A DNA stretch of 64,000 bases from Stygiolobus caldivivus (GTDB lineage Archaea; Thermoproteota; Thermoprotei_A; Sulfolobales; Sulfolobaceae), in assembly GCF_019704315.1 (NCBI RefSeq), contig NZ_AP024597.1:248001-312000 (forward strand). The letters are read 5' to 3'. Position numbers and translations under genes: made by a program. Each line of letters begins with the position of its first letter. Positions within the stretch are counted from its first letter, which is position 1. Positions 32,514-33,665 of this stretch are shown here, piece by piece. Below the pieces are notes generated by a model. The model made no database searches and was not told where the DNA came from. It was given only the letters and a program-made list of their open reading frames with translations.

Positions 32514-32526
32514 TTTAATTTTATAA
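32514..32526 (+). promoter_or_regulatory. TATA box of the aRF1 gene
   Basis: TTTAATTTTATAA lies about 26 bp before position 32547, so transcription should begin at or next to the ATG at 32548, and about ten bases before the ATG at 32558. This matters for deciding how the aRF1 frame is entered. Confidence 0.5.
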
Positions 32527-32547: not shown

Positions 32548-33665
32548 ATGATCAGGGATGAGTCTTTGACAAGTACCTCATCAACAGGCAGGAGTTAAAG
32601 GTCTTAGTTAGAGAACTTAAAAAATGGAGCGCACCCGCGACCGTACTCTTATCGTTATATATACCTCCGGGTAGGCCTGTCCCCGATGTCTTAAACTTGT
32701 TAAGACAAGAGGGGTCAATAGCACAAAACATTAAACTAAAGAGGACGAGGGACGCCGTGACTTCAGCTATACAAGCGGCTATTGATAGGCTAACACAAGT
32801 TAATAAAATACCTGATAATGGCTTGGTACTATTTTGCGGGGAAAACTTTGATACTAATGAGTTTAAATGTTTCATGTTCTCTCCGCCAGAAAAAGTGCCA
32901 ATATTCTTCTATAGGACGGACAAGTCATTTCATACAGAGTTCTTGGAAGACATGATAGAGGAGTCAGACGTATACGGACTGGTTATAGTAGAAAGGGATT
33001 ATGCGACAATAGGCATCCTAAAGGGGGCTAGAGTCCAAGTCCTAGAGGAGTTTGAAGGCTTCGTACCCGGTAAACATATGATGGGGGGACAGTCCCAGCG
33101 AAGAATTGACAGGATTATAGAGGAAATGTATGCTAACTTTTTGAAAGAAGTAGGTGAGAAAGTAAATGCCTTCTTCCTACCCTTCGTGGAGAATAAGAAG
33201 ATGAAAGGGATCCTAATAGGCGGGCCTGGGTATGCTAAGAAAGACTTTTATGATGGCGATTACATGGATTATAGGCTGAAGAAACTAGTCCTCCAACCCC
33301 TCTTCGACGTCCCAGACCAAGGAGACGCGGGCCTCAAAGAGCTAATAATGAAAGCCCAAGACCTTTTAAAGAACCAAAAATATGTCCAGGTAGAGAATTT
33401 ATTAGAGGAGATAAAGTATCACTTAGCCAAAGACGACGGGTTAGTGATATACGGTATCCAAGATATCAGGAAGGCGTTACAGATGGGTGCGGTAGACTCC
33501 CTAGTAGTGTATGATGAGCCAGGCTCGGAACTGGAAAAGTTAGCTCAAGAAGCGGAAAACTACGGGGCAAAAGTATATGTTATAGGGGACGAACTACCGG
33601 ACGGAGAATGGGTTAAAAAGACTTTCGGAGGAGCAATAGGGAAACTAAGGTATAAAGTGTATTAG
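32548..33665 (+). CDS. prf1: Peptide chain release factor aRF1, with a frame break near the start
   Basis: The body (from GAC at 32568) encodes about 365 residues. It begins [11 protein letters not shown] and continues with [15 protein letters not shown], the [11 protein letters not shown] segment of the stop-codon-reading N domain, and the catalytic GGQ loop in [16 protein letters not shown]. It releases finished peptides at all three stop codons. No ATG/GTG/TTG lies in this frame before TTG 32697, which would delete about 43 conserved residues. The nearest ATGs are in other frames: 32548 would need -1, and 32558 (ATG AGT CTT TGA C) would need +1 at CTT TGA C. This could be programmed frameshifting, a real mutation, or a one-base sequencing error in the T run. 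Confidence 0.8.

Follow-up and report, generated by a model that had tools for sequence, protein, structure and literature searches.

A predicted programmed +1 frameshift at the start of the release factor gene aRF1 in Stygiolobus caldivivus and related archaea

The window analyzed here is a stretch of 64,000 nucleotides of Stygiolobus caldivivus (bases 248001-312000 of a single-contig genome of 2,958,410 bases), a member of the family of Sulfolobus-like archaea (Sulfolobaceae), and it carries the gene of the archaeal class-I release factor aRF1. Sequence comparison suggests that in a whole group of heat-loving archaea this gene can apparently be read only by skipping one base at a stop codon, and that aRF1 probably senses and limits its own amount in this way. 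The sequence patterns would best be explained if aRF1 were expressed by a programmed +1 frameshift at a stop codon recognized by aRF1 itself, with negative feedback as the result, and we hold this explanation with good confidence. Regarding its parts, +1 frameshifting is very probably the mode of aRF1 expression, and negative feedback, argued by analogy with the bacterial release factor 2 gene prfB, is likely to be its purpose. The features on which the argument draws are the following.

32568..33665, + strand: aRF1 coding frame, entered by the predicted +1 shift (TIGR03676; Pfam eRF1_1/2/3; structures 3agk and 8hku; GGQ motif)
32558..32569, + strand: three-codon zero-frame open reading frame (ORF), ATG AGT CTT followed by TGA (M-S-L-stop), present at aRF1 in 31/31 Sulfolobaceae
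32564..32567, + strand: slippery CTT-T, on which the P-site CUU is predicted to re-pair with UUU in the +1 frame; invariant in 31/31 Sulfolobaceae
32567..32569, + strand: TGA in the A site, the stop presumably sensed by aRF1; all 31 Sulfolobaceae retain a stop here
32559..32561, + strand: TGA that closes the aRF1 frame upstream and bars in-frame initiation or simple extension (sequence read and upstream frames of relatives)

The translation of 32568-33665 matches the aRF1 equivalog model TIGR03676 (E-value = 1.8e-132, 442 bits against a cut-off of 234.7), contains all three Pfam domains (eRF1_1, eRF1_2, and eRF1_3) and has solved relatives in 3agk and 8hku. The GGQ motif is read as MGGQSQRR, and this motif together with the full-length model match places the product among the class-I release factors of the aRF1/eRF1 type. 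No bacterial RF1 or RF2 model is among the product's hits, which comprise eRF1-type families only and thus give no homology to the prfB product; the window gene is one that works like prfB in its predicted expression, yet is not a prfB. Relatives were collected by protein searches, used in place of a PF03463 family search, which mixes in pelota. The gene is present in a single copy, the other match in the genome being weak, confined to the C-terminal part (residues 192-363, E-value = 1.6e-7) and apparently the pelota paralog. Since aRF1 is single-copy, its broken frame must be expressed.

The break is evident from direct reading of the sequence. The aRF1 frame (GAC at 32568, AAG, TAC and onward) is closed upstream by TGA 32559-32561, and from there down to TTG 32697 it contains no ATG, GTG, or TTG; TTG 32697, the first of these codons in the frame, already falls within the conserved domain. 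One base back from the aRF1 frame, ATG 32558-32560 opens ATG AGT CTT TGA C (CTT at 32564-32566, TGA at 32567-32569, C at 32570), from which a +1 slip enters aRF1. The preliminary description of this locus, which had been made from the letters of the window, reported precisely this absence of an in-frame start and the break at ATG AGT CTT TGA C, and both were confirmed.

The same site was compared among the relatives, as had been proposed there. All 31 Sulfolobaceae genomes searched, representing 11/11 genera, have ATGAGTCTTT followed by TGA (29) or TAG (2) at the start of aRF1. In their alignment, GATGAGTCTTT forms 11 consecutive invariant bases, from the G before ATG through CTTT, ending at the slip site. 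Conservation drops right after the stop, where the next base is C in 20 genomes, T in eight, G in two, and A in one, and codon third positions farther downstream are free to vary. The aRF1-frame residue lying over the stop is Asp or Glu with TGA and Ser in the two TAG lineages, so that the stop is kept while the amino acid changes. Conservation of the site across orthologs therefore exceeds the protein constraint, as in a prfB-type +1 frameshift. Rarity of the motif was also considered as evidence and discarded, for the bare 13-mer ATGNNNNTTTGAC occurs 21 times in the window genome compared with 31 times for the reversed pattern, which is chance level. Because the motif is not rare, its significance rests on position and conservation and not on the motif itself. 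Upstream of the ATG, two further features accompany the site.

32519..32526, + strand: TATA-like promoter element TTTTATAA (crude consensus scan)
32550..32557, + strand: GATCAGGG, a predicted very short 5' leader, strongly conserved (GATNAGGG) by column conservation

Column information climbs steeply from position -8 of the leader (GATNAGGG) and positions -3 to -1 are almost invariant in the family, while the best TATA-like element by the same crude scan is centered -33 to -38 from the ATG in 29/31 genomes. From this position, transcription would be expected to start some 8-10 bases ahead of the ATG, so that the conserved block may reach from the 5' end of the mRNA to the stop.

To look beyond the family, the start regions of 170 aRF1 genes were compared; 31 are those of the Sulfolobaceae (numbered f1 here), and the others come from 14 further families of the class and from additional families of the phylum. 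A gene was counted if a short ORF of three to six codons, including the start, ended with NTT directly before the stop and aRF1 followed in the +1 frame. This rule held in 88/95 genomes of eight families, namely f1 (31/31), f2 (17/21), f3 (7/7), f4 (4/4), f5 (4/5), f10 (23/23), f11 (1/3), and f12 (1/1), although the f12 case, a single genome with a TTG start, could be due to chance. Only two of the 75 genes of the remaining families and outgroups conformed. When the -1 relation was scored over the same 95 stretches one match was obtained, and shuffling of the upstream bases gave a mean of 1.54 and a maximum of 4 of 95. Families f6, f7, f8, and f9, as well as the outgroups, have an ordinary in-frame aRF1 start in nearly every case. 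Separately, the aRF1 of one f8 genome (G047, L082) has neither an ATG, GTG, or TTG in frame before the conserved region nor an NTT-stop site.

The composition of the 88 sites is that of a slippery codon. The codon in the P site is CTT in 36, ATT in 32, TTT in 18, and GTT in two, always with T next, so that the first base varies and T occupies the last two positions as well as the first position of the stop. The counting rule itself required TT; an open scan free of this requirement found, in these families, just two otherwise similar sites with a different last codon (G076 and G060). A slippery NTT at a stop, with the product in the +1 frame, is what characterizes the prfB-type shift (CTT TGA C in the window), and the NTT-T pattern is the one expected if the P-site tRNA moved from NUU to UUU. 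The stop is TAG in 58 sites, TGA in 29, and TAA in one, and is followed by C in 64 and by T in 21; the C or T and the near-absence of TAA fit a slowly terminating signal. Release factor aRF1 reads all three stop codons, and the use of UAG is for this reason expected. The CTT TGA C site of the preliminary description stands for the window, but the stop need not be UGA, UAG being the commoner one at the slip site outside the Sulfolobaceae. Its proposal of a prfB-like +1 frameshift gains support from the 31/31 Sulfolobaceae and from the seven further families.

According to the proposed mechanism, ribosomes would initiate at ATG 32558, decode AGT and CTT, and then face TGA in the A site while CUU occupies the P site. 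With abundant aRF1, termination at TGA would release a tripeptide. With scarce aRF1, the ribosome would wait and the CUU-decoding tRNA would slip by one base onto UUU, after which translation would go on in the +1 frame and aRF1, with the predicted N-terminus M-S-L-D-K-Y, would be made. The architecture, its conservation, the single gene copy, and the lack of any other start are seen directly in the sequences; from the architecture and from prfB we infer the slippage, its efficiency, and its dependence on the aRF1 level.

Several points weigh against this mechanism. The frameshift is predicted from sequence, and the feedback is proposed by analogy with prfB; a constitutive shift would leave the same sequence pattern. 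Two f2 genomes, G076 and G060 (L096, L108), have ATG AAG TAT TAG C at the aRF1 start, and a P-site TAT cannot re-pair on the +1 codon, although the layout is otherwise alike. Genomes G071 and G069 have no matching start, possibly through errors in draft assemblies. The slip site lies at codon 4, nearer to the start than in prfB, and the Sulfolobaceae give no support for a Shine-Dalgarno stimulator, an element required by prfB for efficient shifting: with a consensus 16S tail (a pattern search saw the 16S 3' core in G109 and G063 only), the mean duplex energy is -5.1 kcal/mol compared with -3.9 kcal/mol for windows in the same genes. The complementarity of ATGAG to the 16S rRNA, put forward in the preliminary description, is therefore weak and not clearly above background; moreover, pairing of TGAG with the 16S tail would hardly be feasible so close to the P site, and ATGAG, located directly at the P site, is unlikely to act as a stimulator. 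Complementarity is stronger in f2, f3, f4, and f10 (-7.6 to -9.0 kcal/mol compared with -3.0 to -3.9 kcal/mol for the control, with the consensus tail). In these families (e.g., L077, L072, L068, and L084), GGTGATC or TGAGGGATG is complementary to the 16S 3' tail. The spacing was judged by eye; the complementary bases abut or overlap the start codon of the short ORF, too near to it, on that judgment, for the usual role in initiation, and they are a possible frameshift stimulator. Concerning RNA structure, none stands out locally downstream of the slip site (z = -0.44).

Among the other explanations, a +1 shift that is real but constitutive, being tolerated or set at a fixed ratio and unresponsive to aRF1, survives best and is still improbable. 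Sequence by itself cannot demonstrate feedback, but the site, in the gene of a release factor, is a stop codon, and no other kind of codon relies on the product for its decoding; that stop has been retained over an order with TAA nearly absent. It is very unlikely that translation begins, without any frameshift, at a non-canonical aRF1-frame codon shortly after TGA 32559. Sulfolobales mRNAs frequently lack a leader or have only a short one, and unusual starts are known, which lends the idea general plausibility; however, the only constant aRF1-frame codon just upstream across the families is TTT, which is a consequence of NTT-T, whereas the constant feature is a proper zero-frame start with NTT and a stop, and such initiation would not account for a stop that is retained even as the aRF1 residue differs. 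Still less can be said for M-S-L-stop as a regulatory upstream ORF, with aRF1 reached by termination and re-initiation, or for readthrough from farther upstream. A short ORF does precede aRF1, but the aRF1 frame has no start codon at which re-initiation could occur. Translation that begins farther upstream and reads through TGA 32559 was rejected, given that 25/31 Sulfolobaceae have no start codon in the aRF1 frame between the equivalent of this TGA and the next upstream stop, and that in the other six most such starts lie upstream of or at the TATA-like element. Finally, a sequencing error or recent single-base deletion, raised in the preliminary description since a single-base change close to the T run would fuse the two frames, is refuted by the same break with the same bases in 31/31 Sulfolobaceae and an analogous form in seven other families, and the alternative start ATG 32548 that went with it is not conserved among the relatives.

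The programmed +1 frameshift with feedback has its closest counterpart in bacterial prfB, whose consensus is YTT_TRA_C in 428 genes counted (PMC3711429). The CUU UGA C heptamer is identical in the window genome, and common to both are a stop read by the encoded factor, a +1 slip from CUU to UUU and conservation over a large clade (PMC3711429). In contrast, the archaeal product belongs to the unrelated aRF1/eRF1 family and is omnipotent, so that UAG serves too; the archaeal slip is at codon 3-4, and in the Sulfolobaceae it has no supported Shine-Dalgarno stimulator. In Escherichia coli the prfB slip occurs at about codon 26. The eRF1-like factor of Mimivirus and Megavirus is of the same superfamily and has the same kind of +1 site (CUU UAG C or CUU UAA C), but is viral and has an additional readthrough stop (PMC3521657). 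NTT TAG C is likewise the common form in the archaeal sister families. The same authors called the release factor frameshift otherwise exclusively bacterial and speculated that it had been lost in archaea, archaeal cases not being known to them (PMC3521657). In a 2021 review of recoding in archaea, a single programmed frameshift is listed as demonstrated, the -1 shift of fucA1 (PMC8211752). That gene, of Saccharolobus solfataricus, is likewise a cellular gene from this archaeal order and also relies on frameshifting for its expression, although by a -1 shift on A-AAA-AAT, without a stop as sensor and not for a translation factor. The aRF1 gene does not appear in the portions consulted of a 2016 general review (PMC5009743), and no earlier report of an aRF1 frameshift in archaea was found in the literature, preprints and most subscription journals lying outside the search. 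GeneTack missed prfB frameshifts less than 50 bases from the start (PMC3711429) and PRFect left out the CUU-stop motif (PMC10885494), limits that may explain why the aRF1 site went unnoticed. In a 50S-aRF1 structure of Sulfolobus acidocaldarius, domains II and III alone were traced (PMC10516650).

If the proposal is true, Sulfolobus, a model amenable to genetics, makes one of its essential translation factors through +1 frameshifting. As far as the literature searched shows, no conserved cellular +1 programmed frameshift would have been described in archaea before this one, and the same feedback circuit would have evolved convergently in two unrelated release factors. The proposal would also imply that the aRF1 starts given by ordinary gene finders are probably wrong in most families of the order, and recombinant aRF1 may for that reason miss its native N-terminus.

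With regard to its history, the trait was mapped on a protein tree of 72 aRF1 sequences, where it needs at least five changes compared with 21.9 for shuffled labels and is present in most families above the f7 split. The change count by itself cannot tell gains from losses; one gain followed by losses in f6, f8, f9, G050, and G041 (six changes) is plausible. In G041 (f2, L105), GTG CGC GGA TTT AGC, read by eye, runs directly into aRF1 with TTTAGC kept, which looks like a frameshift loss that left a relic of the slip site. Archaea may have invented product-sensing recoding of aRF1 on their own, apart from bacteria and giant viruses, and on more than one occasion. An ancient +1 form that spans most families of the order and was lost several times, plus a separate -1 form in f27, would make up this history, a tentative proposal with slightly less than an even chance of being correct.

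Family f27 lies outside the class (L265-L272, e.g., L266 and L270). In 8/8 of its genomes, a start followed by GAY GYN CTG GAA TAA overlaps the aRF1 start, encoding M-D-A/V-L-E-stop (M-V-D-A-L-E in G274) with aRF1 in the -1 frame, and two of them (G312 and G274) have no ATG, GTG, or TTG in the aRF1 frame. Possibly, f27 represents an independent, second recoding of aRF1, by a -1 shift.
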